Virus record (IMG/VR): IMGVR_UViG_3300045978_000396
Location: 1-42,292 of that record
Source: a virus
Length of the DNA: 42,292 bases
Reading direction: 5' to 3' (one strand)
Made by a program: the position numbers and the translations under genes. Numbering within the stretch: the stretch's first letter is position 1; each line of letters opens with the position of its first letter. A model generated the notes under the pieces. The model saw only the letters and a list, made by a program, of their open reading frames with translations. It was not told where the DNA came from and ran no database searches. Positions 1-29,643 of the stretch are shown here, piece after piece.

Positions 1-1636
1 CGCAATTCAGAACGTTGCGGCCCGGGCAACCGCGATCGCCGGCCAGATCAAGGCCTGGGTCGAGGCGAACAAACAGGCCCTCGTCACTGCGGCGCAGTTG
101 GCTGTGGGCCTGGTAGGTGCCGGCGGCGCCTTGATCGGCGTCGGCATGGCGTTGCAGCTGGTGGCCGCGGCGATCGGCGGCTTTGTCGGCTTGGCCTCCG
201 CGCTGGGTACCGTGCTGGCGGCGATCGCCAGTCCGATCGGGTTGATTGTCGCGGGTGCGGCCGCCCTGGCGGCTGGATTCGTCGCTGTCAGCGGCGCCGG
301 ATCCTACCTTTCCGCGCAACTCGGCACGCTGTGGCAGGCGATAAAAGGCATCTCGCAATTGCTGCTGGGTGGAGAATTCGGCAAAGCCTGGGAGGCGGCG
401 AAGCTGGCCATGCTGGCCATGGGATCCGCTGTGTTGGACCTGGCCAGCCAGGCCCCGGCATTCGTGGGCTACGCGCTGGGTCGCACCACGCGGGCGATCG
501 TCGACGGACTCGGGAGCCTGATCAGCTGGATCGGCTCGACGATGGGCAAGCTGTTCACCGCGCTGGTGAGCGAAGCCGCAGCGTTTGGGCCGCAGCTGCT
601 GCGGGCGATGGTGACGGGCGATGTCAGCGGCCTCGCCTCGGGAATCGGCGAGGCGCTCACGCTCGCGCTCGGATCCAGCCTCAACGCCTTCGGCGAGGGC
701 TGGGGCAAGCAGGGGGCACCACAGTTTCAGGCCAGTGAGCGCACGCGGCAGCTCCGCCAACAGATGGCAGCGGCCATGCGCAGCGGCGCGTCGCCAGCAG
801 CGGCGGCGGCGGCTGCAGCCGGCACGGCAGCCGCGGGCGGACCGAGTGGCGGATCTGCAGGGGGCGGTGGATCCGCGTCCCAGGCAAGACCGACCATCGA
901 CACCACGTACCTGGAAAAGTATCGGGAGCGGCTGACCGAGCTGGTCGCGGCGCGCCGGCAGAACGTGATTAGCGAGGCCGAATTCCGGAGCGGCTTCGCC
1001 CAGCTGAAGAACCAGCTGTTGGGCGTGCGCAGCCCGCTGCAGGAATTTGCGGACCGGGCTCAGCTGCTGCAGGCGGCGCTGCGCGATGGGACGCTCTCGT
1101 TCGCCGAGTTCCGCCGCGAAATCGACGCTGCCAAGAGCGGCCTGGTCGACGCCACGCCGCTCGAAAAATACACGGCGCGCATCCGCGAGCTGCAGGAACT
1201 GCTGGCGGCCGGCGTGATCACGAAAGAGCAGTTCGGGCTGGAGGCTGCGGAGGCTCTCCCAGACAAGGTCAAGGCGATTATCGAGAACGCTAAGACGCCG
1301 CTGGAAAAGTTCAACGCGCAGATCGCCGAGGCCCGCGACTTCTTCCGGCAGGGACTGATCACGCGCGAGCAATTCGCCGCAGAACAGGAGCGATTGCAGA
1401 AAGAGTTGCGGGAGACCCAACCACAAACTGCTGAACGGTCCGTCAGCGTCTCGTTCTCGGCCGCCGGCCTGTTGGCCTTGGGGTCCGGGGGCGGCCCGCA
1501 AGATCGGATGGCTGAAGACGTGCGGAAGAGCGCGCAGGCGGCCGAGCAGCAGCAGCAGCTAGCGGCCCTGCAGCTCGCGGAGACGCAGGGCCTGCGGCAG
1601 GACCTCAGCCAGATCATGCCGTTCCGCTGGAGGTAA
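1..1636 (+). CDS. Tail tape measure protein, C-terminal part (continues from 41108-42292)
   Basis: This is the 3' part of one gene split by linearisation of a circular genome. The frame is open from base 2 and joins in frame to the CDS beginning at 41108, giving about 897 residues. The protein sets tail length and is threaded inside the tail tube. The left part is hydrophobic and Ala/Gly-rich with several possible membrane segments. It is followed by an Ala/Gly/Ser-rich linker (about 790-890) and a helical, charged C-terminus. That C-terminus holds three copies of a repeat beginning LEKY or LEKF (near 909, 1159 and 1300), each followed by a helix and an ISEAEF, ITKEQF or ITREQF element. The identification rests on the TP901-like N-terminus at 41108, the length and the position between tail chaperone and distal tail genes. 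Confidence 0.9.
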   Translation, partial: AIQNVAARATAIAGQIKAWVEANKQALVTAAQLAVGLVGAGGALIGVGMALQLVAAAIGGFVGLASALGTVLAAIASPIGLIVAGAAALAAGFVAVSGAGSYLSAQLGTLWQAIKGISQLLLGGEFGKAWEAAKLAMLAMGSAVLDLASQAPAFVGYALGRTTRAIVDGLGSLISWIGSTMGKLFTALVSEAAAFGPQLLRAMVTGDVSGLASGIGEALTLALGSSLNAFGEGWGKQGAPQFQASERTRQLRQQMAAAMRSGASPAAAAAAAAGTAAAGGPSGGSAGGGGSASQARPTIDTTYLEKYRERLTELVAARRQNVISEAEFRSGFAQLKNQLLGVRSPLQEFADRAQLLQAALRDGTLSFAEFRREIDAAKSGLVDATPLEKYTARIRELQELLAAGVITKEQFGLEAAEALPDKVKAIIENAKTPLEKFNAQIAEARDFFRQGLITREQFAAEQERLQKELRETQPQTAERSVSVSFSAAGLLALGSGGGPQDRMAEDVRKSAQAAEQQQQLAALQLAETQGLRQDLSQIMPFRWR

Positions 1637-1637
1637 C

Positions 1638-2432
1638 ATGAGCATCGCGTTCGAAGAACTGCCGGAGAGCCGCTCGCTCACGTTCGATCCGCCCTCGCTG
1701 ACCACACAATGGGTTTGCGACGGGGTATTCTCCAGCGACACCGTCGCGCAACTGGCGCTGTCCGGAACGCCGGCGATCGCCGCCCACCCGCTGGGCATCC
1801 TGTATCGGCAGGACATCGCGATCAAGGAGATCGGCCACAAGCTCTACAACCTGACGGTGCCCTACAACGCCCGCAAACGCGAGTCGGGATCGTACCGCTT
1901 CGAATTCGACACTCTGGGCGGCACTATGCATGTGAAGGCTGGCCAGTTCATCGCCGTGTTCCCGGCCGGTGCGGAGCATGACGACGGCCTGATCGGCGTC
2001 AAGGGCGACGACGTGGAAGGCTGCGACATCACGATCCCGGTGATGAAGGTGACCGTGCACTTCACACACCCCGCCGGCGTGACGGTGCCGATCCGGATCC
2101 GCAACTTGTCGCGGCTGGCCGGCACGGTGGACACCGGCGGCTTCTTTGACTGGGCGCCGTACGAAACGCTCTTTTTGGGTGCGCAGGGCAGCGAGGGCAG
2201 CGACGTCGAGACGACCATCGCCTACCACTTCGCCATGAGCGAGAACATCACCAATGCCACGATCGGCGGCATCACCGGCGTCGATAAGGCCGGCTGGGAC
2301 GTGGCCAGCGTGACGTGGCAGCCGACCGTCGCCGGCGGCAAGCCCGTCCAGCGCGCCGAAAAAGTCCAGATCGTGCGGCCGTACCTCAAGCTGCGGAACC
2401 TGGCGGCCGTGCTCGGCTTCGGAGCCCCCTGA
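1638..2432 (+). CDS. Distal tail protein, unassigned family
   Basis: This 264-residue protein starts one base after the tape measure stop, so it belongs to the same late transcript. It is rich in beta-forming stretches and lacks a signal peptide or membrane segment. I recognise no enzyme motif. Its position directly after the tape measure gene is where distal tail, baseplate hub or tail-tip proteins are normally encoded, so a structural tail role is inferred from place. The following gene starts one base after its stop codon, again indicating coupled translation. Confidence 0.7.
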   Translation: MSIAFEELPESRSLTFDPPSLTTQWVCDGVFSSDTVAQLALSGTPAIAAHPLGILYRQDIAIKEIGHKLYNLTVPYNARKRESGSYRFEFDTLGGTMHVKAGQFIAVFPAGAEHDDGLIGVKGDDVEGCDITIPVMKVTVHFTHPAGVTVPIRIRNLSRLAGTVDTGGFFDWAPYETLFLGAQGSEGSDVETTIAYHFAMSENITNATIGGITGVDKAGWDVASVTWQPTVAGGKPVQRAEKVQIVRPYLKLRNLAAVLGFGAP

Positions 2433-2433
2433 G

Positions 2434-3330
2434 ATGGTCGAGCGCGCACAACCCGGAGGATCGTGGCACGTCCCACTGGCAGCCGATTGGAATGCCATCG
2501 GCGAAGCCACCGAATGGACGCAGCAGCAGCGACTCGGGCAGGGCGGCGGATCGCCGCGCACCGTGCCGCTGACCGATGTCGTCAAGCTCAAGAACTCGTC
2601 CGGTGCGAACCGCCGCGAAGGGGAGGTCCTCGAGATCTTCGGCTTCCTGCTGACCACCGTCGCCCAGCGGCAGCTCTGGTTTGACGGGGCCACTCCCAAC
2701 GCGACGCGCCCGTTCGGGCTGCTGCGCCAGGCCACTCCGACCAACGCGCTCGCCGATGCTCAGATCAGCGGCGCGTGCCTCGCCCTGGTCAACGTGACCG
2801 ACGCCGGCCACGGCTATGCCACCGTGGCCAGTGGCAATGTGGTCTTGCAGTCCGCAGTCGCCGGCCCGGTCCGGATCCTTTACAAGCCCAGCGGCACGGG
2901 CGAAAAGACGTGCGGCGTCGTCATCGGGGCGGGAGCGAGTGCGGCGGGCTCGAGCGGCCTCGCCATTGCGACCTTGCAGAGCGCGCTAGCTCCGACCGAT
3001 GCGACCGCGAGCGTGACCAGCGTCGAGGCCTTGGGCGGCGGCACCGCGCCCAGTGTCGGCTCGCCGGTCAACAGCCTCTTCAAACTGGCCGGCAAGGCCG
3101 GCGACTACGTGCTCTTAGCCGAGCGCGCCAGCAACGGCACCTGGCTGGTCGCGCAAATCACCCACCAGGCGGCAACCCTCGTCCTCAAACACGCCGGGGA
3201 CGGGGTATTCCTGAAGTTCAACGCCGGTACGTCGGACGTCGACGGTTACGTCATCGGCTCTTCTGCGATCGTCTCCTCCGGCACCGCGGCGTACGAAATG
3301 CAGTTCGATCCCATTATCTGCACAGGCTAA
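2434..3330 (+). CDS. Tail-tip or minor structural protein
   Basis: This 298-residue protein follows the previous gene with a one-base gap. The N-terminal third is mixed. The rest is Ala/Gly/Ser/Thr/Val-rich with alternating hydrophobic residues, as in beta-rich virion appendage proteins (for example the stretch around AGASAAGSSGLAIATLQSAL). No catalytic motif is visible. Position in the tail operon suggests a minor tail or tip component. The next gene begins two bases after its stop. Confidence 0.65.
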   Translation: MVERAQPGGSWHVPLAADWNAIGEATEWTQQQRLGQGGGSPRTVPLTDVVKLKNSSGANRREGEVLEIFGFLLTTVAQRQLWFDGATPNATRPFGLLRQATPTNALADAQISGACLALVNVTDAGHGYATVASGNVVLQSAVAGPVRILYKPSGTGEKTCGVVIGAGASAAGSSGLAIATLQSALAPTDATASVTSVEALGGGTAPSVGSPVNSLFKLAGKAGDYVLLAERASNGTWLVAQITHQAATLVLKHAGDGVFLKFNAGTSDVDGYVIGSSAIVSSGTAAYEMQFDPIICTG

Positions 3331-3332
3331 CC

Positions 3333-3932
3333 GTGAAGTGGGCATTCCGAGACGGCCGACCGATGTTCCGCGATGCTAGGCCGATGTTCGGCGTCGCGGC
3401 GGGGAACTGCTGCCCCTGCCCCTTATGTAATCCGGGCTGCGAAACGCCCGCACAACTGGAAGTGCTCGCGGCCGGATTCGTGAACGCTTTCTGCAGCCGC
3501 TGCACAGATCTGAACACCTCGCATTTCGTGGACTGGCTCCTCGCCTACGACCATGCCGGTACGCCGGCCTGCTCTTGGTATGACAATTGGTCCTGGAACC
3601 GCTGCCCCGGATCCTTCTACACACTGCTCACGGCCGCGGCGAAAGTGTGGTTGTTCGACTTGGACACGGAGCTCGAGGTGGAAGCGGCCATCCACGTGGG
3701 CAGCCTCTCGGAACTACACCCCGCGCGCGATAACCACAGCGGCGGCTCCAATCCTTGGATCACCTACCATTTTCTGACGACGGTTGCAAAATCGACTTTC
3801 AGCTGCAGTAGCCTCGATGGGCTCGAGCTGCCCTTCTACCGCTGCGATGCCGGCACGTCCGTCGGCGAGGCGCGCTGCAATCTGTACTGCGACCCGATTT
3901 ACGCGTCCGCCACGCTCTACCTGCCACCATGA
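3333..3932 (+). CDS. Cysteine-rich protein, first gene of the modification cassette
   Basis: Translation from a GTG two bases after the previous stop gives 199 residues. The protein is unusually rich in Cys for a phage tail-region protein: about 17 residues, with clusters CCPCPLC and CETPAQ near residues 27-39, CSRC near 53-56 and CNLYC near the C-terminus. It also has many Trp, Tyr and Phe residues. I do not recognise the family. The stop overlaps the ATG of the next gene (ATGA at 3929-3932), so it is translationally coupled to the phosphoribosyltransferase fusion. It could be a metal-binding or disulfide-rich tail-tip protein, or a substrate of the enzymes downstream. The second idea is inference only. 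An in-frame ORF extending upstream overlaps the previous gene and is not used. Confidence 0.7.
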   Translation: MKWAFRDGRPMFRDARPMFGVAAGNCCPCPLCNPGCETPAQLEVLAAGFVNAFCSRCTDLNTSHFVDWLLAYDHAGTPACSWYDNWSWNRCPGSFYTLLTAAAKVWLFDLDTELEVEAAIHVGSLSELHPARDNHSGGSNPWITYHFLTTVAKSTFSCSSLDGLELPFYRCDAGTSVGEARCNLYCDPIYASATLYLPP

Positions 3933-4903
3933 TCATCCGCTGTCCGAGCTGCCACCGTTTCCGCAACTGCCACGACTGGCCCTACCAATGCAGCTGTGGC
4001 TGTGAGATCCCGCGTTCCGAGGCCGTCGACGCGAGCGACGAATTGCGCTCGACGCGGGCCGGCGCGACATCCACCGGGCTGCGTTTTATTTCCAATCGTC
4101 AGCGGCTGCGGGACATCGAATCATTGGCCTCGCAGATTCCACCTGACGTCACCGGCGTCGCCGGTGTGCCTCGTTCCGGACTGACGCCGGCACTCCTCAT
4201 CGCCGAACGCCTGCATCTGTGGCCACATCTCATCCACCGCGATACCGGGCTGCAGCGATTGCCTGTCGGCTGGCGCATGCAGCATGCGCGTCCCGACAAC
4301 GGGACCCTGCTAATCGTGGACGACACCATCGGCAGCGGCCGCGCGATGGGAGAGATCGCGGACGCTATTCCTCGCCGCAGAAAAACGCTCAAGGCGGCGG
4401 TCTACTGCAATCCGCTGAAGCGCGACCTAGTGGATCTGTGCGCGCGGGAACTGCCTCTGCCGCATTACCTGGAATGGTGCATCGCCAACTCCGTGTATAC
4501 CCAAACCCTTGCCTTCGATCTCGACGGGGTCATCTGCGAGCAGAACTATTTTGATGATGATGACCCGCGTTATCAGACTTGGCTGCGCGAAGCCAAGCCA
4601 CTGCACCTGCCGCGGCAGTTTGCTACGCCCCTGATCGTGACGTATCGCTGCGAGTGCCACCGCAGCGTCACGGAGGACTGGCTTAGTCGTTGGGGTGTCC
4701 GCTATGACCGGCTCGTCATGGCTCCGTTCGACGACTGGCGCCGACGCGATGCGGAATTGGGTCAGGGCGAGCACAAGGCCAAGTATTTGACGGAATCCAC
4801 GTGCACCGGCTTGGTCGAGTCTCACGACTGCGTGGCGGGGCGCGTCCATCAGCTGTCCAAGAAGCTGGTCATTTGCTTGGAAACCGGGAAGGTGTATGCA
4901 TGA
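3929..4903 (+). CDS. Zinc ribbon - phosphoribosyltransferase - HAD-like fusion
   Basis: The 324-residue protein has three parts. Residues 1-25 hold a Cys cluster (CPSC at 5-8, C14, CSCGC at 21-25), probably a zinc ribbon. Residues about 50-190 form a type I phosphoribosyltransferase-like domain with GVPRSGLTPA (79-88) and the PRPP-binding loop LLIVDDTIGSG (127-137). Residues about 192-324 look like a HAD-family domain: motif I AFDLDGVICE with D197 and D199, Thr in LIVTYR, Lys in HKAKYL and a late acidic motif ESHD. Such domains transfer or use phosphoribosyl groups and hydrolyse phosphate esters; the substrate is unknown. Both neighbours overlap it by ATGA (3929 and 4900). Related two-domain proteins occur, to my memory, in surface-polysaccharide loci, which fits a sulfotransferase two genes later. 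Confidence 0.8.
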   Translation: MIIRCPSCHRFRNCHDWPYQCSCGCEIPRSEAVDASDELRSTRAGATSTGLRFISNRQRLRDIESLASQIPPDVTGVAGVPRSGLTPALLIAERLHLWPHLIHRDTGLQRLPVGWRMQHARPDNGTLLIVDDTIGSGRAMGEIADAIPRRRKTLKAAVYCNPLKRDLVDLCARELPLPHYLEWCIANSVYTQTLAFDLDGVICEQNYFDDDDPRYQTWLREAKPLHLPRQFATPLIVTYRCECHRSVTEDWLSRWGVRYDRLVMAPFDDWRRRDAELGQGEHKAKYLTESTCTGLVESHDCVAGRVHQLSKKLVICLETGKVYA

Positions 4904-5895
4904 GCTTTTTCTGTCAGCAGCCGTTCGAAACGCTCAACGTATCGCCCAACTGGCGCAATACCTGCTGTCCGAACTGGCACCATCCGAGCCGTTTTGTCTT
5001 TGGCCCGATCACGGACCTGGCGGCCGACTGGAACGATCCGATCCTGCAGGAGTTCCGCCGAGCGCTGCTCGCCGGCGACGATCGGTACTGCCGGCTCTGT
5101 CCCTTTCGGGCATCCGCCATGCGGCGCACGGCACGGGGTCCAGATGATCAGCCGGTCGTGGAGAAGCCGCCCGTCACGCTGGCGATGCTCACCGATCGTA
5201 CCTGCAACCTGACGTGTCCTTCGTGTCGGCGCGAGCATCAAACCGACAAGCCGGCCATGAGCGTGCAGGCAATGGTCGACCGCCTGCCCGGCCTGCGCGT
5301 GATCACGCTGCTCCTATCCGGCGATCCGTTTGCCAGCCGACACGCGATGGATTTTCTGACGAGCGGCGATCATGCATTGCCCCATGTGATCATCTGGACT
5401 AACGGCCTGTTGCTGCCGAAAAGCTGGCCCCGGATCAAGCGGAAAGTCACCGTGGTCGTCATGTCGATCGACGCGGCGACGCAAGCGACGTACGAACAGG
5501 TCCGACGCGGCGGCCGCTGGGGGGAGCTGCTGACCGCGCTGGCGTTCTGCCGCGACCTGAAGGACTCCGGCGAAATCGTCGAGTGGCAAATCAATTTCGT
5601 CTGTCAGGCTGCTAATTACCGGGAGATGCCGGCGTTCGTGGAGCTGGGCCTCGAGTACCACTGCACTCGCGTGCAGTTCGCCGCGATCGCGTCCTGGCCG
5701 CATCTGACGCCGGCGGAGTGGGAGCGCATGAACATCGCCAACCCGACCCATCCCGAGTTCCCGCAGCTCTGTCAGACGCTCGCGGATTCGCGGCTGCGAT
5801 TGCCGATCGCCGATACGTCGGCATTATCGCCGGAAGCCCTGGCGAGCGTGGCCCGCAAACGAGCCGGCGACGATTGCTTCGCGTTCCGCCAATGA
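4900..5895 (+). CDS. Radical SAM enzyme with N-terminal SPASM-like cysteines
   Basis: The 331-residue protein carries the radical SAM 4Fe-4S motif CNLTCPSC at residues 102-109 (C102, C106, C109), followed by barrel-like strands such as ITLLLSGDP and HVIIWTNGLLL. The region before the barrel has additional cysteines (C5, C22, C23, C64, C67) in an order that resembles a SPASM or twitch auxiliary-cluster domain, but placed at the N-terminus instead of the C-terminus. The chosen ATG overlaps the stop of the previous gene (ATGA). Radical SAM/SPASM enzymes modify peptides, proteins or sugars; which applies here cannot be told. The stop overlaps the start of the sulfotransferase-like gene, so the two are co-translated. 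Confidence 0.85.
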   Translation: MSFFCQQPFETLNVSPNWRNTCCPNWHHPSRFVFGPITDLAADWNDPILQEFRRALLAGDDRYCRLCPFRASAMRRTARGPDDQPVVEKPPVTLAMLTDRTCNLTCPSCRREHQTDKPAMSVQAMVDRLPGLRVITLLLSGDPFASRHAMDFLTSGDHALPHVIIWTNGLLLPKSWPRIKRKVTVVVMSIDAATQATYEQVRRGGRWGELLTALAFCRDLKDSGEIVEWQINFVCQAANYREMPAFVELGLEYHCTRVQFAAIASWPHLTPAEWERMNIANPTHPEFPQLCQTLADSRLRLPIADTSALSPEALASVARKRAGDDCFAFRQ

Positions 5896-6479
5896 TCGTC
5901 TTCCACGAGCAGCAGATCGTCTACTTGCACGTCCCACGCACGGGCGGCACGTCGCTAAGTACAGTCGTCGAAGCCCAGGTGCCTGGTGCGCAGTGGATCG
6001 GCGGACCGGCGCCGCTGGAGCACATGCCCGCCCACGTGGCCAGGAAGCTATTCCCGCAGCACCGGTTCGTCGCCGTAATCCGGAATCCCTGGGACGTGGT
6101 GCGGAGCGCGTTTTGCGGGCTCTGTGCGCTGGCAGCCACGGAGCCCGACTGGCGGGGCATGTGGCACGATCGGGCCGAGTTTGACCGAATGGTGCGCTAC
6201 TATAGGTTGGGCTTCGGGGGCTTCACACGGCAACTGGTGACGGACGACTTCTTCTCGCTATACGGCTGCGGTGGCTTTTCCCGAATGTTCGCCGACGAAC
6301 GGACCATACTTCTGCGATACGAACAGGATCCGTACCGGCAGCTCGGCACTCTCGTGGGTGTGCACCTGGATCTTCCGTACGAGCTGCCCTCGCGCACTGA
6401 CATCAAAGTGCACTGGACGGATAACGAGCGGAGTGTGATCGCCGCCTACTTCCACGCCGACGCACTGCTCTATCTGTGA
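5892..6479 (+). CDS. Sulfotransferase-family protein
   Basis: The 195-residue protein begins with a strand and the 5'-phosphosulfate loop HVPRTGGTS (residues 13-21), followed by the 3'-phosphate motif FVAVIRNPWDVVRSAF (residues about 59-74). Both are hallmarks of PAPS-dependent sulfotransferases of the sulfotransfer family. It is short for the family but appears complete, ending in a helical region. It would transfer sulfate to a sugar or protein hydroxyl, including tyrosine. The ATG overlaps the radical SAM stop (ATGA at 5892-5895). It is the last gene of the four-gene chain. No signal peptide is present, so action is expected in the host cytoplasm. Confidence 0.8.
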   Translation: MIVFHEQQIVYLHVPRTGGTSLSTVVEAQVPGAQWIGGPAPLEHMPAHVARKLFPQHRFVAVIRNPWDVVRSAFCGLCALAATEPDWRGMWHDRAEFDRMVRYYRLGFGGFTRQLVTDDFFSLYGCGGFSRMFADERTILLRYEQDPYRQLGTLVGVHLDLPYELPSRTDIKVHWTDNERSVIAAYFHADALLYL

Positions 6480-6714: not shown

Positions 6715-6730
6715 TGTTTCCCCGGAAACA
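6715..6730. promoter_or_regulatory. parS-like palindrome, copy 1
   Basis: TGTTTCCCCGGAAACA is an inverted repeat of TGTTTCC half-sites round a 2-bp centre. It matches the bacterial parS consensus TGTTTCACGTGAAACA at 13 of 16 positions. It lies between the end of the late operon and the convergent integrase gene. Identical or nearly identical copies occur at 20248 and 35320, and the phage encodes a ParB-domain protein. Confidence 0.5.
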
Positions 6731-6781: not shown

Positions 6782-7804
6782 CTACGCGCTCGCGCTGCTG
6801 ACCGTCTGTCCGTACAGGGTTCCCAGCCACAGCACGGCGTCATCGAACCGGTCCTGTGACGGCACCACGTAGTGCCGCGCGGCGATCGACCGGGGCGCAT
6901 GGCCGAGAAACAGCGGAGCGTACCGTCCGTATTCGCCGTGCGATTCCAATAGGCTGGCCGAGGTCTTGCGGATCAACTTCAGCGGAACATTCCGCAGCCC
7001 AATCCGACGCAGCAACCGCTGATAGTTGCGGCCGATGGCGTCGACCTTGGAGAGTTTACCCTGGTCGTTGATCCACGTGCGCTTCAGCGGCTGCCCTCCG
7101 CGGCAACACAGCACGGTCGGTCCGTCGCGCCGCCCCCGTTCCTCGAGTAACGCCGCGGTCGCGGGCCAGAGCGGATAGGTAACTTTGGGCACGCCGTCCC
7201 AGCGGCGCGTCTTAGAACGTTTTCGCGAGATCCGCCAGCAGCTCCAATCCACCTCGTCCGGAGCGAGATCCGCGACGTCCTGTTGCGTGAAGCCGCAGTT
7301 GGCCATCAGTAGGATCGGCAGCCGGAGAGCGGGAGTGGCGGCCTCCACGATCGCGGTGAACTCCGCGACGCTCAGGATCCGCAGCTCCGGCGCAAACGCG
7401 GTGATGCGCACGTCTTCGAGGTTGCGCGGCAAGGTGTGCAGGATTTCCTGGCGATAGCACCAACGCACGAACTGCCGCACGGTGGCCAGACAGCAGCTCG
7501 CCGAACAGGAGGCCAATTCGGCCGCGGCCACCCGCCGACTCAGATGCTGGACGAATCCGGCCAGCGACGCGCCATCTAGTCCAGCGCCGCCGTACTCGCG
7601 GAACCACCTTAAATCGCGAGCCACATTATCGAACCGGCCGGCGCTCACCGAGCCGATTTGGGCCTCGCTGAGTTTGGCGGACAGAAACTGGTTCACGGCC
7701 GCCTCCACAGAGACGGCACTTTCAGCAGTACCAACCACAGCCGTCAAAGCCTCACAAAGCCTACGAGCCTCACTCAAAGCCCAAGCAGAATCGACCGTTT
7801 GCAT
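6782..7804 (-). CDS. int: Tyrosine integrase, noncanonical active site
   Basis: The 340-residue protein has an N-terminal core-binding-like region (about 30-130) and a catalytic domain (about 145-320). The second conserved Arg (R279 in KLIRKTS), the LGH His (H302) and the nucleophile Y312 in RHYV are present. The first catalytic Arg, normally in TGLRxxE, is replaced in NCGFTQQDVADL (Thr at 173), and the usual HxLR His is Lys (K276). I recall this CGxTQxD and LKLxRKTSA pattern from planctomycete integrases, so it is probably a functional lineage-specific variant. The gene is divergent from the attP region next to its start. It would integrate and excise the phage at a tRNA gene. Confidence 0.85.
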   Translation of the reverse strand: MQTVDSAWALSEARRLCEALTAVVGTAESAVSVEAAVNQFLSAKLSEAQIGSVSAGRFDNVARDLRWFREYGGAGLDGASLAGFVQHLSRRVAAAELASCSASCCLATVRQFVRWCYRQEILHTLPRNLEDVRITAFAPELRILSVAEFTAIVEAATPALRLPILLMANCGFTQQDVADLAPDEVDWSCWRISRKRSKTRRWDGVPKVTYPLWPATAALLEERGRRDGPTVLCCRGGQPLKRTWINDQGKLSKVDAIGRNYQRLLRRIGLRNVPLKLIRKTSASLLESHGEYGRYAPLFLGHAPRSIAARHYVVPSQDRFDDAVLWLGTLYGQTVSSASA

Positions 7805-8280: not shown

Positions 8281-8820
8281 ATGTTTAGCGTGCAACACGC
8301 GCTCGAGGCGCTCAAGCTCGGGCCACGACAGTTGATAGCAGTTGGAGTCGTCTGCGGCAGCTTGCTGCTGCTCCCGGAGAAAGTCGCGGATTTCCTGGGT
8401 ATTCATGACTTTGCACAGAAATACGGCCAGTGGCTCGGCGTCGCATTGATCGTGTCGGTAACTTTGCTCGCTGTAAATGGGAGCGAAAAAGTCCTGTATG
8501 CCGTACGGGATCGATCGCTCAGACGCAAAGCGCATCAGCGCATGCTGAAGCGACTTCACGGTCTCACCGAAGAAGAAAAACAGATTCTGCGGTTTTACGT
8601 GGCCAAGGAAACAAAGACCAATGTGCTGCGACTCGACGATGGCGTCGTGAATGGATTGGTAGCCGCTGGCATCATCCATCGAGCTTCGCCATTCGGGAGG
8701 CGGGATGAGTTTCCCCACAACATCGCCGAGCTCGCGTGGGAGTGTCTCAACCAACACCCAGAAGTGCTTGTGGGAACGACGAGAACATATCGTTCGGACA
8801 AACGACAGGAATCGTTGTAA
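8281..8820 (+). CDS. sieB: SieB-like superinfection exclusion membrane protein
   Basis: The 179-residue protein has two predicted membrane segments (about residues 16-34 and 50-68) separated by a short loop. A cytoplasmic domain with a basic start and the motif LTEEEKQILRFYV follows, then a region (GVVNGLVAAGIIHRAS) typical of winged-helix-like SieB C-termini. SieB proteins of Rac and lambda-type prophages abort infection by related phages. The gene sits in the lysogeny region between attP and the XRE regulator, where prophage-expressed exclusion genes are common. The ribosome binding site is weak. Confidence 0.7.
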   Translation: MFSVQHALEALKLGPRQLIAVGVVCGSLLLLPEKVADFLGIHDFAQKYGQWLGVALIVSVTLLAVNGSEKVLYAVRDRSLRRKAHQRMLKRLHGLTEEEKQILRFYVAKETKTNVLRLDDGVVNGLVAAGIIHRASPFGRRDEFPHNIAELAWECLNQHPEVLVGTTRTYRSDKRQESL

Positions 8821-8959
8821 CCAGACTCCCCAACTTTTCATGGCTGCGGCCTGGATCCTGAGCGGAGTGGCATGTCCGAGGTTGTGCTGCCCGGCGATTG
8901 TACGGAGTGAGGCGCTCAGAAACTACAGCGGTTTGGGGCCAGGGAACAGTGAAAGCGAT

Positions 8960-8988
8960 TTGCCGCGCCAAATGCGTGGTGCTATGAT
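8960..8988 (+). promoter_or_regulatory. Promoter of the XRE regulator
   Basis: TTGCCG (8960-8965) and TATGAT (8983-8988) are separated by 17 bases, a good sigma70-type arrangement. Transcription would start about at the ATG at 8995, giving a leaderless or nearly leaderless message. Confidence 0.55.
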
Positions 8989-8994
8989 GGAGCC

Positions 8995-9246
8995 ATGATC
9001 ACGATGCCAACTCTCGATGAAATTCGTGAGCACTTCCGCCAGAACGTTAAATCCCGCAGACGTGAACTATCGCTCAGCCAGGAACAATTGGCCGCCGTAA
9101 CTGGCATTCCGCAGCCAAGTATTGCGAATTTCGAGCGAGGCACCCGCGTCCCCTCATTCGAGACCCTCGTCAAGCTCGCAGAGGGACTCCGTACCTCTCC
9201 GGACGTTCTCCTCCGTCCGCATGTTTTTTCTGAAATCTCTGGTTGA
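8995..9246 (+). CDS. XRE-family helix-turn-helix regulator
   Basis: The 83-residue protein is a single Cro/CI-type HTH domain: LSLSQEQLAAVTGIPQPSIANFERGTRVPSFETLVKLAEGL spans the helices (residues about 26-66 in the version starting at 8995), with the recognition helix at PQPSIANFE. It lacks the C-terminal cleavage domain of CI-type repressors. It is likely a repressor or Cro-like switch controlling the promoter that overlaps its own stop codon (9243-9272). An alternative ATG at 9004 would have GGAG 11 bases upstream. The promoter position favours a leaderless start at 8995. Confidence 0.85.
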   Translation: MITMPTLDEIREHFRQNVKSRRRELSLSQEQLAAVTGIPQPSIANFERGTRVPSFETLVKLAEGLRTSPDVLLRPHVFSEISG

Positions 9247-9272
9247 CTCATACCATAGCGCGTTGCTATATT
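9243..9272 (+). promoter_or_regulatory. Rightward early promoter with 5' hairpin
   Basis: TTGACT (9243-9248) overlaps the stop codon of the XRE gene. TATATT follows after 18 bases (9267-9272). The predicted transcript begins near GCCTCCC (9273-9279), which pairs with GGGAGGC (9294-9300). It would drive the early genes from 9422 rightward and is a natural target for the XRE regulator. Confidence 0.55.
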
Positions 9273-9421
9273 GCCTCCCGTCGTTACGTCGGTGGGAGGC
9301 CGGCGCGGGATTGGCCAAGGAATAGGCCGCTTTCCGACGCGTTATCTTGGCCCGGCGGCTCGCGGCACAGCAGGTATCTGACCCCCTGTGTGCGTCGATC
9401 CGCTGGGCACTTCTATCTGCC

Positions 9422-9709
9422 GTGGCACCCAACCCCGCAACACACTGCGCCCAGTGCGGCTGTACCGACGCGCGGGCCTGTCTAGTCGATGGCTGGCTCC
9501 CGTGCTGTTGGATCCAGCCGGAGCTGTGTTCTCGCTGCGCTACGGTGGCCCAGTTGCTCGAATCCACTGCCGGTCGGCAGTGGTTGCTGGCTCTCGCGTT
9601 GGGCGAGATGCGGGCGCTCTGCGACCAGATCGATGAACTGCCGCTCTTCGTTATTCCACACGAAGGGGACGAGCTACTCAACGCATTCAACACGCGCCCC
9701 GGGGCGTGA
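9422..9709 (+). CDS. Small zinc-finger-like protein with CxxCGC motif
   Basis: I choose the GTG at 9422, giving 95 residues; an upstream start at 9347 is possible. The N-terminus reads CAQCGCTDARAC, then a Trp-rich piece with CC and CSRC, so it probably binds a metal ion through four or more Cys. The rest is helical and acidic. It shares the C-x-CGC-x4-C and later C-S-x-C arrangement with the protein at 11930, suggesting paralogues. Such small Cys proteins are common in phage early regions but the role is unknown. Confidence 0.6.
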   Translation: MAPNPATHCAQCGCTDARACLVDGWLPCCWIQPELCSRCATVAQLLESTAGRQWLLALALGEMRALCDQIDELPLFVIPHEGDELLNAFNTRPGA

Positions 9710-9743
9710 ACTGATAGGGAAGCTCTTTGCAAGGAGGTCAACC

Positions 9744-9926
9744 ATGTTGGTGCTGTCCAGGAAACGCCATCAGAAGATCGTGATCAAAGTCGGTGGCAAG
9801 GTGCTGTGCCGAGTTGGTGTCTGTGAACTGCGGCACGACAAGGTCCGACTGGGATTCGAGGCAGAGGAGGACGTCGAAATCGTCCGCGAGGAAATCGACC
9901 AGGACGAAGAATGTGCGGTTGCGTGA
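9744..9926 (+). CDS. csrA: CsrA-family translational regulator
   Basis: This 60-residue protein matches CsrA closely: MLVLSRKRHQKIVI at the N-terminus, then strands around KVLCRVGVCEL, and KVRLGFEAEEDVEIVREEI at the C-terminus. The conserved L4, R6 and the RLGF(E/D)A core are present, and V-REEI matches the end of the family domain. A strong ribosome binding site AAGGAGG (9731-9737) sits 6 bases before the ATG. CsrA dimers bind GGA motifs in mRNA leaders and repress or stabilise messages. On a phage it may reprogram host metabolism or time phage translation. An in-frame upstream extension is rejected. The next gene starts 9 bases downstream. Confidence 0.93.
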   Translation: MLVLSRKRHQKIVIKVGGKVLCRVGVCELRHDKVRLGFEAEEDVEIVREEIDQDEECAVA

Positions 9927-9934
9927 GGGAAGTT

Positions 9935-10252
9935 ATGGCCGGGCGTCGTCGCCACACGGACAGACCGATCGACTGGCTCCGCGAGGGCCAACGCTTGGTG
10001 TTCCCGCTGCCGCAGGGCACGGCCGCGGTGTACGTGTTTCGGGTGATTCCGGGCAGCTACCGGGTGGCATTCGAGACGGCCGCCACCGCGCACGGGGTCC
10101 TCGCGCGGGAGCTTCCCGCGGATGCCGTGTACCCGAACGAGTATAGCGCCGTCATGCAGGGTCTGGCCGCCGTACGCAGCATCTGGGCCCGCCGCGGAGT
10201 GCCGGCCATGGTCTCGAACGTGACAGCGGCCATGGAGGGCTACTGGGGTTGA
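9935..10252 (+). CDS. Small hypothetical early protein
   Basis: The ATG at 9935 has GAGGGA at 9925-9930, so I prefer it to the upstream start overlapping csrA. The product is 105 residues: a basic N-terminus, a beta-rich middle (VYVFRVIPGSYRVAFETA) and a helical C-terminus. I do not recognise the family. It is probably in one transcript with csrA. Confidence 0.6.
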   Translation: MAGRRRHTDRPIDWLREGQRLVFPLPQGTAAVYVFRVIPGSYRVAFETAATAHGVLARELPADAVYPNEYSAVMQGLAAVRSIWARRGVPAMVSNVTAAMEGYWG

Positions 10253-10253
10253 G

Positions 10254-10270
10254 AGGCGATCGGATCGCCT
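10254..10270. promoter_or_regulatory. 17-bp perfect palindrome
   Basis: AGGCGATC-G-GATCGCCT is a perfect dyad immediately after the stop of the preceding gene. It could be an operator for a dimeric regulator or a transcript hairpin. It is followed 13 bases later by a larger inverted repeat. Confidence 0.5.
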
Positions 10271-10282
10271 GTTCGCGGGTTC

Positions 10283-10318
10283 GATTCCACGTGAGCAAAG
10301 GATTGCCCACGTGGAATC
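10283..10318 (+). promoter_or_regulatory. 11-bp inverted repeat before gene 10334
   Basis: GATTCCACGTG (10283-10293) and CACGTGGAATC (10308-10318) are perfect inverted repeats with a 14-base loop. They end just before the GGGAGGG ribosome binding site of the gene at 10334. In RNA this is a strong stem-loop; in DNA it is a dyad with CACGTG cores. There is no T tract, so it is not a standard terminator. Confidence 0.55.
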
Positions 10319-10333
10319 CTGGGAGGGTGCGAA

Positions 10334-10729
10334 GTGGCAGATACCAAGCGCTTGCCCGTAGACGTCGCCCGGCAGATCGGCGAGTCCCACGCCAAAGACA
10401 TCGTGTTGGTCGTGACCTGGGACGCCGCCACGGAGAAGACCAGCATCGTGACCTGGGGCCGCGAGCCGGGCCACAAGGCAGCGGCCGCCCAAGGCGGGGA
10501 CGCGATCGCCCAACACCTCGGATTGGACCTGGCGCAGGCCGAGGTGCATCAGGATTACCGGCGGGAGGGAGAGGCGGCCAGGGAGGTCGATCGGCTCCTT
10601 CGGGCCTGCCGTACGATTCGCCAGCTGCACGAGCAGATGCTGCAGATGCTGGCCATACGCGGCTGTGTCAGCGATGTGCTGCTGCGGAATATCCGTGTGG
10701 AGTTACATGACGCGCTGCGGTCCGCCTGA
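10334..10729 (+). CDS. Conserved small phage protein, unknown
   Basis: A GTG start with GGGAGGG 8-14 bases upstream gives 131 residues. The middle region (VLVVTWDAATEKTSIVTWG followed by a Gly/Ala stretch) resembles a small beta domain found in uncharacterised phage proteins. The C-terminal half is helical and contains LLRACRTIRQLHEQML. No catalytic motif is seen. The preceding inverted repeats suggest regulation of this gene in particular. Confidence 0.6.
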   Translation: MADTKRLPVDVARQIGESHAKDIVLVVTWDAATEKTSIVTWGREPGHKAAAAQGGDAIAQHLGLDLAQAEVHQDYRREGEAAREVDRLLRACRTIRQLHEQMLQMLAIRGCVSDVLLRNIRVELHDALRSA

Positions 10730-10743
10730 GGTGCACGATGACG

Positions 10744-11112
10744 TCACAGCCCGCTGCTCTGTTTGACCAGGTCGATCAGCACGGCCTTCCAGACGTCGAA
10801 GGGCGCTGCCGCGACCTGTTCAATGACGGCCTTGGCCTGCTGCCATCGTCCCGGCTCCCTGGCTGCGTCGAGGAACTCATGCCCCTCCCAGGTCAGCGAG
10901 CGGAGTCGGGCCGTGGGCGAGCTGCTGCCCCGGGTGGTCAACTCGGTGCCGCTGGCCAGTCCCGCCTGCAGGATCAGGTAGGCGTGGTAGCTGACCTCCT
11001 CCTGGCTGTACCCGTCGATCTGCAGCGTCGTTGTGGCGGAGCCGCTTTCCTGGGCTTCGACGGTCAGCAGGAGCTGCCGGACGAGGTCCATGTTGCGTCG
11101 CATGGGGGGCAT
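10744..11112 (-). CDS. DUF2513-family protein
   Basis: On the minus strand the product begins MPPMRRNMDLVRQLL (start at 11112, with AGGT about 5 bases before it; MRRNM at 11103 is the alternative). It contains IDGYSQEEVSYHAYLI and ALASG-like spacing and ends with LTWEGHEFLDAAR. This series is characteristic of DUF2513, a small family common in phages and mobile elements, perhaps with a winged-helix fold. Function is unknown. It is the only minus-strand gene besides the integrase and is divergent from the short recombinase at 11281, with repeated sequences between them. Confidence 0.8.
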   Translation of the reverse strand: MPPMRRNMDLVRQLLLTVEAQESGSATTTLQIDGYSQEEVSYHAYLILQAGLASGTELTTRGSSSPTARLRSLTWEGHEFLDAAREPGRWQQAKAVIEQVAAAPFDVWKAVLIDLVKQSSGL

Positions 11113-11135
11113 TCTACCTGATTGGGGGGGCGGCA

Positions 11136-11204
11136 AAAAACCGCCCTGATTTGTTCCAGATCCGGGCCAAAAACCGCCCTAGTTTGTCTGAAGTAGGGCA
11201 GTTT
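11136..11204. promoter_or_regulatory. Repeated operator-like sites between divergent genes
   Basis: AAAAACCGCCCT is repeated at 11136 and 11169, a 33-base period (about three helical turns). Each copy is followed by an AGTTTGT or GATTTGT end. A third, inverted and imperfect copy lies at 11194-11204 (TAGGGCAGTTT). The cluster sits between the start of the DUF2513 gene and the recombinase gene, so it is probably a binding region for a regulator of one or both. Confidence 0.5.
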
Positions 11205-11280
11205 CGACCAAAGGGGGGGTAAAAGCGGTGGGGTGCGGGTGAGGACGGGGGCTGGAGACAGCCCGTGAAGGTGGCCCACG

Positions 11281-11916
11281 ATGGAGGTGATCCGATGGTT
11301 TCCGCTGGACCGAGTCCACGAGCTGGAACGCGAAATCGCGCTCGAACTGCAGGCCCACCGGCGCGCCCGCCGGCGAGACGCCATCGGCGTCGCCCTCGGG
11401 CTGCACGGCCTGCGCGTGGGCGAGGTGCGGCGGGCCGAGTGCCGGCACTTTTTCGCCGCCGCCCGTTCGTTGGATGTGTTCACGATCAAGAAGGGGGACG
11501 CGCGCAAGATCCCGCTGCACGATTCGCTCGTGGCCGCCATGCAGCGGGAACTGGCGGATCGCGGTGTCCAGTCGCGGTACCTGTTGGCATCGCGTCTCGG
11601 GGGGCCGGTGGCCAAACGCCAGATGCAGGCGTTGGCCACGCGGCTCTTCGATCGCTTGCTGGGACCGCAGCACGGGCTGACCTTCCACAGTTTGCGGCAC
11701 ACCTTCGCCATGCGGCTGTACGCGGAGACGCGCGATCTGTTCCTGGTCAAACGCATGCTCGGCCACCGGTCGGTGAAGAACACGGAGGTCTATGCCCGGA
11801 GTCTGGCGGAGGTGCCGGCGGCCTGTTTGGTGAGAGTGGGTGATGCGGTCGTAGTCCGGTCGCCGGAGCATTGGCCCGGGGCGCAGCTCCGGCTATTCGA
11901 CGACGGCCACGATTGA
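11281..11916 (+). CDS. Minimal tyrosine recombinase, catalytic domain only
   Basis: The 211-residue protein contains a full set of tyrosine recombinase residues: R45 in GLHGLRVGEVRR, a Lys in the TIKKGDARKIPL hairpin, H136 and R139 in HSLRHTF, H162 in MLGHRS and Y171 in TEVYARS. It begins almost directly with the catalytic domain and lacks the usual core-binding domain of about 80-100 residues. It therefore differs from the phage integrase at 6782, which has the domain but a noncanonical active site. It may resolve dimers, invert or excise a segment, or cooperate with the other recombinase. Start chosen at the ATG at 11281; a longer coding start upstream is unlikely because of the repeats. 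Confidence 0.8.
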   Translation: MEVIRWFPLDRVHELEREIALELQAHRRARRRDAIGVALGLHGLRVGEVRRAECRHFFAAARSLDVFTIKKGDARKIPLHDSLVAAMQRELADRGVQSRYLLASRLGGPVAKRQMQALATRLFDRLLGPQHGLTFHSLRHTFAMRLYAETRDLFLVKRMLGHRSVKNTEVYARSLAEVPAACLVRVGDAVVVRSPEHWPGAQLRLFDDGHD

Positions 11917-12940: not shown

Positions 12941-13888
12941 ATGCAGGATCAGCGGACGATCGACTACGAGCGCGGCGAGCAGCTCGGCATCTTGCGGGAC
13001 GCGAGATTGCCGAGCGTGAATACCACCGATGGCGGGGCGGTGTCCGCCAACGTCCTCAAGTCGGTCCTGCGCGCGGTGGACGATCACGGCCGCGGTCGGA
13101 CCTGTTGGGTGACCCAGCAGACGATCGCGCACGAGGCATGCATCAGCGTCCGTCAGGCGCAACGGGCGACCTGGTGCCTCAGCGAAGCCCTGGGCGTGTT
13201 GGCGGTCGAGCGGCAAGCGATCGGTCGCGGACAGATGAAGACCTGTAACTTCTACACCATCGTGTGGACGGAGCTGGTCCTGTTGTGTCCGTCGCGACGA
13301 CTCCCGAGGCCGGTGAAGGCCCCACACCAAAGTGCCAGTACGACCGACCAAAGTGCCAGTACGACCGACCAAAGTGCCAGTACGACCGACCAAAGTGCCA
13401 GTACGACCGACCAAAGTGCCATAGTGGCGTACAGAAGCGCTTTCGAAGCGCAACAAGAAACGCCTCACCCTCCTACCTCCCCAGCTGCCGACCGGTCTAG
13501 TGGCCTAAGCGACTGGAGGAAGGTGGAGGAGGAACTTGTGAAAACGGGAATCGTGGACTGGCAAACTCCGATCGTCGTCGCCCGTAGCCGTGTGACCCCT
13601 GATCACGTGCTACGAGTGCTCCAGCACTACCGAGCGGCCGACGGTGTCTACGGTCCTGGTGCTTTGCATCGCCGGCTGATGCGGTGTCACCCGGCGATTG
13701 ATCCCGATAAAGGCTGGCCCAACTTGCCACACCATGCGAAAACTGACGCCCACCGTGAGCAATTCCAAGCTCGGCGTCTCCGCGAACTCGTCATCGAAGG
13801 GCGTCGTCAGCGAATGACGGACGAGGAGATCAAGCAGTTGCTCCGGCGAGAACTATCTGACGAGTTCTGCGTGTCGCGTGGGTGGTAA
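12941..13888 (+). CDS. Replication initiator-like protein with internal iterons
   Basis: The 315-residue protein has an N-terminal helix-turn-helix-like region (about 35-90: TQQTIAHEACISVRQAQRA), as in phage replication initiators that use winged helices. A Ser/Thr-rich linker of residues 130-157 is made of four exact copies of a seven-residue unit QSASTTD. The C-terminal half is helical and charged. The next gene encodes a DnaB-like helicase, the same initiator-helicase order as lambda O and P or DnaD/DnaB-type phages. The repeated linker is encoded by 21-bp direct repeats that probably form the origin. The role is inferred from position and layout, not from a recognised family signature. 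Confidence 0.65.
   Translation: MQDQRTIDYERGEQLGILRDARLPSVNTTDGGAVSANVLKSVLRAVDDHGRGRTCWVTQQTIAHEACISVRQAQRATWCLSEALGVLAVERQAIGRGQMKTCNFYTIVWTELVLLCPSRRLPRPVKAPHQSASTTDQSASTTDQSASTTDQSASTTDQSAIVAYRSAFEAQQETPHPPTSPAADRSSGLSDWRKVEEELVKTGIVDWQTPIVVARSRVTPDHVLRVLQHYRAADGVYGPGALHRRLMRCHPAIDPDKGWPNLPHHAKTDAHREQFQARRLRELVIEGRRQRMTDEEIKQLLRRELSDEFCVSRGW
13328..13421. repeat. Four 21-bp iterons inside the initiator gene, candidate origin
   Basis: Four exact tandem copies of a 21-base unit starting CAAAGTGCCAGTACG run from 13328 to 13411, followed by a 10-base partial copy to 13421. A hairpin GCGCTT-TCG-AAGCGC (13437-13451) follows. The length is a multiple of three, so the repeats stay in frame. Iterons in the middle of an initiator gene are a hallmark of the lambda-type origin. 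Confidence 0.65.
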
Positions 13889-19834: not shown

Positions 19835-20278
19835 ATGAAAAGCAGCACGATGGATGCTCCGCGGCCGCGAATGGTACCCGGTACTGCGCGGAGGTCGGCC
19901 AAGAATCAGGCCAACCAAAACCATTGGAAGGCCCGGCAAGGCGGCGTGCAAGGGCCGCGACGCCGGAAACGTCCCATCATCACCTGGCTCTGGTGCGAAC
20001 CCGGTGATCAGGACGTCCGCACGGTGCTCGCCTACACTCGCAGCGAAGCCCGCTCCCTGGTCAAGAAAGCGCTCGGCCTGGGATCTCACCATCGGATGCC
20101 CTCGCAGATCCGTCTGTGGCGGGGCGAGACGACGGTGGGCCAAGAATGTGTCAGGCGGCTCGGCAACTTGGCCGTCGGCCCGTCACCGCTGTCACGCGTC
20201 GCCGGCCACATTAGGCGGTCGGCCGCAGTGCTCCGCCATCTCTTCGCTGTTTCCCCGGAAACACGGCGGGCCGCATGA
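19835..20278 (+). CDS. Basic hypothetical protein
   Basis: The ATG at 19835 has ACGGAGGT 5 bases upstream, giving 147 residues; a longer frame upstream runs through the terminator and is not used. The N-terminal 50 residues are very basic and probably disordered. The middle has a small folded part with ITWLWCEPGDQDVRTVLAYTRSEARSLVKKALG. The role is unknown. The parS-like site at 20248 lies within the codons of VSPETR near the end. The stop overlaps the next ATG (ATGA). Confidence 0.55.
   Translation: MKSSTMDAPRPRMVPGTARRSAKNQANQNHWKARQGGVQGPRRRKRPIITWLWCEPGDQDVRTVLAYTRSEARSLVKKALGLGSHHRMPSQIRLWRGETTVGQECVRRLGNLAVGPSPLSRVAGHIRRSAAVLRHLFAVSPETRRAA
20248..20263. promoter_or_regulatory. parS-like palindrome, copy 2
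   Basis: TGTTTCCCCGGAAACA is identical to the copy at 6715. It lies inside the C-terminal coding region of the gene at 19835, about 13.5 kb from copy 1. Confidence 0.5.
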
Positions 20279-29500: not shown

Positions 29501-29643
29501 GTGTCGGAATCGCGCAGCACAACGGGTTTTTGCGCGGGGGCAAGTACAAGTTCAAGGGCGCGGGCGACATCGATTGGGGGCCGCCGGAGGAAGCGCCGGA
29601 CGCGGATGAATGGCCGCTGCCCGAGCGGCTCGGGGTGCCTTAA
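26554..29643 (+). CDS. Large tail fibre with LamG-like and beta-propeller domains
   Basis: The 1029-residue protein has several parts. Residues 1-190 look like a concanavalin/LamG-type fold (SDDFNRANSTNIGADW start). Residues about 195-585 have BNR/sialidase-like repeats (SMALL motifs SNGYIHCFYDGS, SDDAGVTWKK, SNGYPMVLYSKH, FDTGATWSES) that suggest a beta-propeller for sugar binding or hydrolysis. Residues about 587-670 hold four repeats of about 20 residues with the core SLPRLTQ. An Ig-like SwmB region follows (about 675-760, FDEPV near its start), then a helical trimerisation-like part and two carboxypeptidase-regulatory-like beta domains. It is a likely receptor-binding fibre, placed directly upstream of the terminase genes. 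Confidence 0.75.
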   Translation: MASFSDDFNRANSTNIGADWTELQGDLDINSNALRMITNPGRARYEHDLASVNHKASVKIGAWASGNSVGLWLRADGDAWAALDAYIIIVTNSATSTYRIFRIVNGALSAALATLNTTAPSAGTVIEATVETIGANYVVAVFAGGAAKLRYVDTIGPSSGLRAGLQISASSGNPTVDDFACSDFAIANYGGVVAADGYPDTAVGHSTRCAQVYNGFLYVTYRSTTTYRIAKINLSTNAVTTALLATVPAGSENDLHHRSALCVDSNGYIHCFYDGSGSVNPLHYRRSSSPETITSWGAEKTVAASGSSYLQCGVVDNGGNDRLFIVSRSGSPDNVSKLNIRYTDDLDGDPASWTTTQIFGLKASGGYYLATEDAVYPLAMLVDGAKIHLAVSYTDQSLTNIHHQRVGYFMSDDAGVTWKKADGTTLTLPADELTIDMLANYKPASAHSIAVDSNGYPMVLYSKHPVENADVTTYCSIVMYVAKWNGSAWSHQELSATQFHNQHNGAISINGSTWEVFASDYAGGLTELWRLRSFDTGATWSESKLTDSVPLTTYEAMYIEHVDEVDQNYVIYSSRTGVFWAAAATAAPSGSVAQTLPKLGQAAAASPIVSGSAALSLPRLTQSASGASISGSVVGQSLPRLTQLSAAYPIVSAIAVQTLPRLSQSAIADSTDPNPPALEYVLIPAAGNLMIVAFDEPVLDAGGGDDGFSLLVGTTEVSLSYYSGNGSALLYYTPSRPILFGETLTADYAAGILRDSSNNLVASFSGIAVTNNSQVFAAGGGITDEVIDQIAERVAVRMLVAPGNKLWTGPTGGVDPGLTAADVAANVGAGLAAAHGSGSWEGGGSGAGARTVTVTVDDGTNPLESARVRLSKGAETYVLTTDVSGQCTFNVDDGTWTVSISLGGYHYGGTTLIVAGNQTATYSMTAIAIFAPAAPDCTTGWVLCVDRDGLPAADVTMHAQMVTGVGTDGRFLDRRTIAFVSNSVGIAQHNGFLRGGKYKFKGAGDIDWGPPEEAPDADEWPLPERLGVP

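Follow-up and report, generated by a model that had tools for sequence, protein, structure and literature searches.

A four-gene cassette behind the tail genes of a phage, a possible glycan-tailoring unit in a post-tail decoration slot

The virus record IMGVR_UViG_3300045978_000396 of IMG/VR, analyzed here over its whole length of 42,292 nucleotides (nt; hereafter the window), carries directly behind its tail genes a cassette of four overlapping genes at positions 3333-6479. These encode, in this order, a Cys-rich protein (A), a fusion of a phosphoribosyltransferase (PRTase) and a HAD domain (B), a radical S-adenosylmethionine (SAM) enzyme (C) and a sulfotransferase dependent on 3'-phosphoadenosine 5'-phosphosulfate (PAPS; D). 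The reading that we favor, and to which we would give about an even chance, is that the cassette is a late-expressed glycan-tailoring unit situated in a post-tail decoration slot. What one sees directly is the gene set, its order and overlaps, the catalytic motifs, the recurrence of the set in an unrelated phage and the replacement of its enzymes in relatives.

All four genes lie on the + strand, A at 3333..3932 (GTG start, 199 amino acids, 13 Cys), B at 3929..4903 (324 amino acids), C at 4900..5895 (331 amino acids) and D at 5892..6479 (195 amino acids), and the A/B, B/C and C/D junctions are the ATGA overlaps at 3929, 4900 and 5892 that a preliminary description of this DNA had already pointed out. 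This pattern recurs in a second record, IMGVR_UViG_3300009702_000011 (locus L112), which was found with a profile made of C and its Paracoccus homologue. Behind its own tail genes, L112 carries all four in unchanged order: a Cys-rich gene (8605-9057), B' (9054-9986, 32% identity to B), C' (9983-10990, 43% identity to C) and D' (10987-11586, 34% identity to D), joined by 4-nt overlaps that read ATGA, GTGA and ATGA. Its Cys-rich protein is weakly related to A. The L112 record shows no match to the terminase of the window, and the locus none to its capsid, tape measure, tail1 or tail2 proteins. Because an unrelated phage, with enzymes of 32-43% identity, shares the set, the order and the 4-nt overlaps, the genes appear to have been long maintained together, and the cassette is, judging from these sequences, a real and old unit, complete in the two phages found. 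The preliminary description proposed the co-occurrence of the four as a test, and they do occur together once more, in L112; elsewhere, their homologues are rarely all together. In particular, when C was scanned for further with a profile of 11 sequences, no other locus examined had a full homologue of B or D, and C found no match in sixteen terminase-related contigs, most of them fragments. Searches of IMG/VR and phage genomes for homologues of the single proteins returned almost nothing, and only profiles built from distant relatives worked.

The position of the cassette is equally well defined. Immediately 5' of it lie the C-terminal part of the tape measure gene (98..1636, +), the conserved tail gene tail1 (1638..2432, +), which has 482 relatives in viral contigs and serves as our slot marker, and the conserved tail gene tail2 (2434..3330, +), which directly precedes the Cys-rich gene. 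Since these genes and A follow each other at gaps of only 1-2 nt, the tail operon physically ends with the cassette, and the late-operon position behind the tail genes claimed earlier is borne out. The cassette also closes the late strand, as D is followed by a convergent gene (6782-7804, -) that looks integrase-like by eye and has no Pfam match. The GC content at third codon positions is slightly lower in the cassette (0.75-0.80) than in the tail genes (0.82-0.88), a difference that is inconclusive as to foreign origin.

Taken as single sequences, B, C and D all match Pfam below the gathering scores, and their motifs were therefore checked in alignments; domain matches and motifs together uphold the enzyme kinds assigned in the preliminary description. 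B begins with a zinc-ribbon-like Cys cluster (CPSC...CHDWPYQCSCGC; 3941..4003, +), a phage-specific extension that in the alignment is present in the window and in L112 and absent from bacterial homologues. There follow a PRTase domain (4100..4414, +; PF00156, residues 58-162, E 6e-4) with an acidic pair in the loop for phosphoribosyl pyrophosphate (PRPP; VDDTIGSG), and a HAD domain (4508..4876, +; phrog_415, E 2.5e-7, and E 4e-6 for the L112 homologue). The HAD residues D197, D199, T238, K283 and E297 are invariant in the B family and the acidic PRPP pair is kept. A profile of B finds among structures in the PDB the purine PRTase 4z1o (E 3.6e-8) and Pnkp1 4xrp (E 0.003). PRPP-dependent ribofuranosyltransferases of bacterial polysaccharides combine a HAD phosphatase with a PRTase-type domain (PMC11127046, PMC11231755, PMC10299916). 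B resembles the dual-domain members of this group (gPRT plus HAD; Klebsiella O4/O7 and Bcs3 of H. influenzae b) in having both domains in one chain and in that its bacterial homologues lie in polysaccharide clusters, but it differs from them in its canonical purine-PRTase-like domain and in its added Cys cluster. We predict that B is a PRPP-dependent (ribo)glycosyltransferase and hold with moderate confidence that it works like the ribofuranosyltransferases; as no sequence similarity to the solved enzymes of that family was detected, we do not file it as a member. Loci L156 and L157, tried as further PRTase-HAD fusions, were rejected, their weak, HAD-only similarity coming from a stand-alone HAD gene.

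Homologues of B that lack the Cys cluster occur in Rhizobium, Paracoccus, Bosea, Novosphingobium and others, and their surroundings are informative. In Paracoccus MC1862 the neighbors are rfb genes, a polysaccharide flippase-type protein and glycosyltransferases, and in Bosea they are lipopolysaccharide (LPS) and exopolysaccharide (EPS) genes; three of the four chromosomal B-family loci inspected (L211, L213 and L214) have polysaccharide-like neighbors, as read from sequence. A search of 385 genomes of one class gave B-family matches in 4 genomes only, too few for a large context statistic. At the type VI secretion system (T6SS) loci L202, L207 and L208 of Rhizobium, the B homologue adjoins a GT28-type glycosyltransferase, a caspase-like protein and VgrG, and in Paracoccus zhejiangensis (L018) it is a C homologue that lies at a T6SS locus. 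As the caspase (34%) and the glycosyltransferase (about 33%) of L018 are homologous to those adjoining the B homologues in Rhizobium, the B and C families are found beside the same glycosyltransferase and beside a tail-like machine. The likeness to the phage cassette ends there: the T6SS loci are bacterial, and neither a sulfotransferase nor a Cys-rich protein was seen in them. As an observation in its own right, the loci of Rhizobium and P. zhejiangensis, which lie beside VgrG or sheath genes, have the look of a modification locus, linked to a spike or an effector, that has yet to be described.

C matches the radical SAM domain PF04055 (E 2e-5) and phrog_14086 (E 6e-11). Its motif CNLTCPSC (5203..5226, +) is a CxxxCxxC, the motif that binds the SAM 4Fe-4S cluster, with C102, C106 and C109 invariant, and the GDPF at its SAM-binding loop (G141-F144) is likewise invariant in 11 homologues, as befits the radical SAM superfamily. 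An N-terminal auxiliary-cluster region of SPASM/twitch-like type (4912..5103, +; PF13186, residues 5-68, E 0.007) contributes C5, C22, C23, C64 and C67, invariant across the same 11 sequences, and the curated twitch radical SAM model NF033640 scores C at 42 bits where 170 are required. The best PDB matches of the C-family profile are BtrN (E 4e-9), which acts on a sugar-like alcohol, the viperins and cytosylglucuronate decarboxylase (BlsE), with 5wgg, which acts on a peptide, far below. Thus C shares with Twitch/SPASM enzymes such as BtrN of butirosin synthesis and the viral phrog_14086 the CxxxCxxC, the GDPF and the auxiliary cysteines, but has the last of these N-terminal to the core. The 11-sequence profile found 315 viral relatives, of which 80 were kept. 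Viral relatives of C lie among sugar epimerases, dTDP-sugar isomerases, carbamoyltransferases and other radical SAM enzymes, and in a tree the C proteins of the window and L112 form a clade of their own (100/100), apart from the other, abundant viral types.

The match of D to Sulfotransfer_3 (E 4e-5) scores 24.4 against a Pfam gathering score of 27, and it has both elements expected of a PAPS-dependent sulfotransferase, the 5'-phosphosulfate-binding motif PRTGGTSL (5934..5957, +), identical in L112, and the 3'-phosphate-binding motif RNPWDVVRS (6081..6107, +), of which L112 keeps RNPWDV. The L112 protein has no Pfam match and is most similar to the galactose-3-O-sulfotransferase phrog_3347 (E 0.008).

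The order tail1-tail2-Cys-rich protein-enzymes, present in the window, recurs in its relatives with other enzymes. We took open reading frames (ORFs) in the relatives as the longest open frames, so that some starts are uncertain. Among 89 ORFs downstream of tail1 (35 non-redundant loci) there were 7 GT2, 5 FkbM, 5 GT1, 3 radical SAM, 2 GT9 and 1 Sulfotransfer_2 matches, with some members falling in more than one family and other methyltransferases also matching; 89 upstream ORFs included no glycosyltransferase, methyltransferase or sulfotransferase and gave one SPASM match. The Cys-rich protein is followed by a glycosyltransferase with an N-terminal Cys cluster in L033, by a GT2 enzyme and then a sulfotransferase-like protein in L034, by a glycosyltransferase-like protein and then a methyltransferase in L036 (partly read from sequence) and by a GT4 enzyme in L082. 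In L087 the slot holds a GT9-like, a GT9-FkbM-like and then a sulfotransferase-like protein, the last assigned by motif only and the whole partly read from sequence, and in L077, L079 and L106 a radical SAM protein stands with, or is fused to, glycosyltransferases. Cys clusters are found on the slot glycosyltransferases of L033, L038 and L082 and, in similar form, stand-alone in L035, and are absent from those of L054 and L058 and from the GT4 of L079. Homologues of B, C and D were found in none of the other close relatives. Taken together, these loci suggest a post-tail decoration slot of a recurring kind, with swappable enzymes. The earlier statement that no standard phage module has this set therefore holds for the exact set, and our literature search found no paper describing the cassette, but it does not hold for the slot. 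Downstream of the tail genes of L095 (15943-17809) there also lies a RiPP-like pair (RiPP, ribosomally synthesized and post-translationally modified peptide), a radical SAM/SPASM-like enzyme with a short protein that has a twin-arginine-like leader and 24 Cys.

As for A, scans of profile libraries assigned it to no family, and the AlphaFold models of A and B are unusable (predicted local distance difference test scores of 34 and 41). Cys-rich proteins occupy the same slot in L033, L035, L036, L037, L047, L082 and L084. Those of L112, L035, L084 and L033 form a family in leave-one-out hidden Markov model (HMM) searches of 19,689 ORFs (E 4e-7 to 4e-5), with an N-terminal Cys block and a C-x-W in common; L047 failed this test as a member of the A family and was dropped. 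A is probably a tail-tip or tail-associated protein, the positional counterpart of the Cys-rich proteins behind tail2 in relatives.

How might such a unit work? Going by family, fusion and context, B would use PRPP to attach 5-phosphoribose to an acceptor, and removal of the 5'-phosphate by the HAD domain would leave a ribofuranosyl unit. C may then oxidize, epimerize or otherwise alter the sugar, and D, with its observed PAPS motifs, would sulfate it. The most likely acceptor would be the tail tip, especially A or tail2, and we are less sure of preferring it to the host surface. One may even speculate that the enzymes dock to the tail tip by means of Cys clusters, which B and some of the unrelated slot glycosyltransferases carry. 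A bolder version, possible in our opinion but on the doubtful side, is that A or a neighbor receives a ribofuranosyl group from PRPP, is changed by the radical SAM enzyme and is sulfated, and that phage-specific Cys clusters tether the enzymes; this would be a new virion modification, mirrored at T6SS spike loci with the same enzyme families. That said, several points weigh against a glycan-tailoring unit in a decoration slot. Only two complete cassettes were found, and A joins the Cys-rich family weakly (leave-one-out HMM E 0.013). As the cassette has no glycosyltransferase, the acceptor for B would have to be either a glycan already in place or a protein itself. The PRTase half of B looks like an ordinary purine PRTase, a likeness that would fit a nucleotide reaction as well; among the best 60 of the 62 matches at E<=1 of the B profile (A13) to all PDB sequences there were PRTases, a few PRTase-fold relatives and Pnkp1, and no solved ribofuranosyltransferase (Bcs3, Thermobacillus composti enzyme). 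Finally, the integrase-adjacent position also suits lysogenic conversion.

In that last case the enzymes would ribosylate, oxidize and sulfate a glycan of the host surface against superinfection, much as one might compare with the gtr genes of other temperate phages, and A would merely be the last tail gene. The phage does encode an integrase, an integrase-like gene converges on the cassette with a SieB-like exclusion gene shortly beyond, and bacterial homologues of B lie in EPS and LPS clusters. We nevertheless consider this reading unlikely: overlaps and 1-2 nt gaps bind the cassette to the late tail genes, A travels with the enzymes in L112, and the cassette showed neither a flippase-like nor a polyprenyl enzyme. 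The preliminary description had left open whether the enzymes mature a peptide or build a sulfated, phosphoribosyl-derived glycan, and it is the glycan that is favored by the context of B, its PRTase-HAD architecture and the BtrN-like profile of C. In favor of a reading in which C cross-links or otherwise changes A, while B and D attach other groups, are the Cys-rich protein immediately upstream in both cassettes, the SPASM-like auxiliary cysteines and weak matches of C to peptide maturase models (e.g., StsB, E 0.006). However, no maturase model reaches its cut-off (StsB scores 15.5 against 625 bits), the best structural matches of C are of another type, as described above, and in L033, L036 and L082 a Cys-rich protein stands with glycosyltransferases and without a radical SAM enzyme. 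Neither a maturase score nor a precursor peptide typical of RiPPs or sactipeptides was found, A having 199 amino acids and a family that also occurs with glycosyltransferases, and no search was aimed at a precursor-recognition domain. Such maturation thus seems quite improbable to us.

We would likewise assign little probability to a modified nucleoside, in which B couples a base and PRPP into a nucleotide that it then dephosphorylates, and C and D modify the product into a signal or antimetabolite, like the metabolite proposed for Ter systems. The purine-PRTase likeness of B, which extends to a xanthine PRTase model (E 1.5e-5), agrees with this, as does the pairing of nucleobase PRTases with HAD phosphoesterases in Ter systems (PMC7824862). 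But the context differs: the homologues of B adjoin polysaccharide genes, the sulfotransferase and the tail position would be left unexplained, and no TerB, TerC, TerD, TerF or TelA was found among the window proteins scanned, which did not include every small ORF. What is more, it is very improbable that the four are unlinked cargo genes gathered by chance at the end of the late operon. The slot is indeed highly variable between relatives, and the other close relatives lack B, C and D, but chance would hardly produce the set, order and overlaps shared with L112 at such low identity. Returning to the glycan-tailoring reading, among its closest parallels are phage glycan-decoration clusters, such as those for capsular polysaccharide modification in cyanophages (PMC7824862), whose sets of sugar and tailoring enzymes are likewise variable and polymorphic between related phages; the window differs in that its tiny set of four genes lacks a classical glycosyltransferase and is bound through overlaps to tail genes and a Cys-rich protein.

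The rest of the genome offers several further observations. The record has a 126-nt direct terminal repeat, and the genome is hence circular as assembled; the tape measure gene starts at 41108 and crosses the circular junction, the frame joined across it is open, and the protein matches tape measure phrogs and PhageMin_Tail (E 3e-48). There are two integrase-like genes in this one small phage, the convergent one after D and a second at 11281-11916 (+; PF00589, E 3e-21). The SieB-type superinfection exclusion protein is encoded at 8281-8820 (PF14163, E 1e-30), and the ORF at 9744-9926 is CsrA-like, by eye only. The palindrome TGTTTCCCCGGAAACA occurs at 6715-6730, directly 3' of the cassette, and at 20248-20263 and 35320-35335, with one copy inside the capsid gene and one copy carrying one mismatch; none is expected by chance, and among the other loci its 14-base core is found only in L001, which is the window itself, and in the near-identical contig L002. 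Four head-to-tail 21-nt repeats at 13326-13430, within a replication-initiation-like gene (12941-13888), are candidate origin iterons. A 1029-amino-acid protein with BNR repeats (26554-29643; PF15892, E 8e-23) precedes the terminase genes.

If our reading of the cassette is right, it would represent a phage route to a sulfated, ribose-based decoration that starts from PRPP and not from a nucleotide sugar, and that is maintained as a four-gene unit of unrelated phages. Moreover, the site behind tail1 and tail2 in hundreds of uncultivated phages is suggested to be an exchangeable decoration slot, which would make tail glycosylation something that one can search for systematically. The enzyme families held in common with T6SS loci, finally, hint at a practice shared by phage tails and their bacterial relatives.

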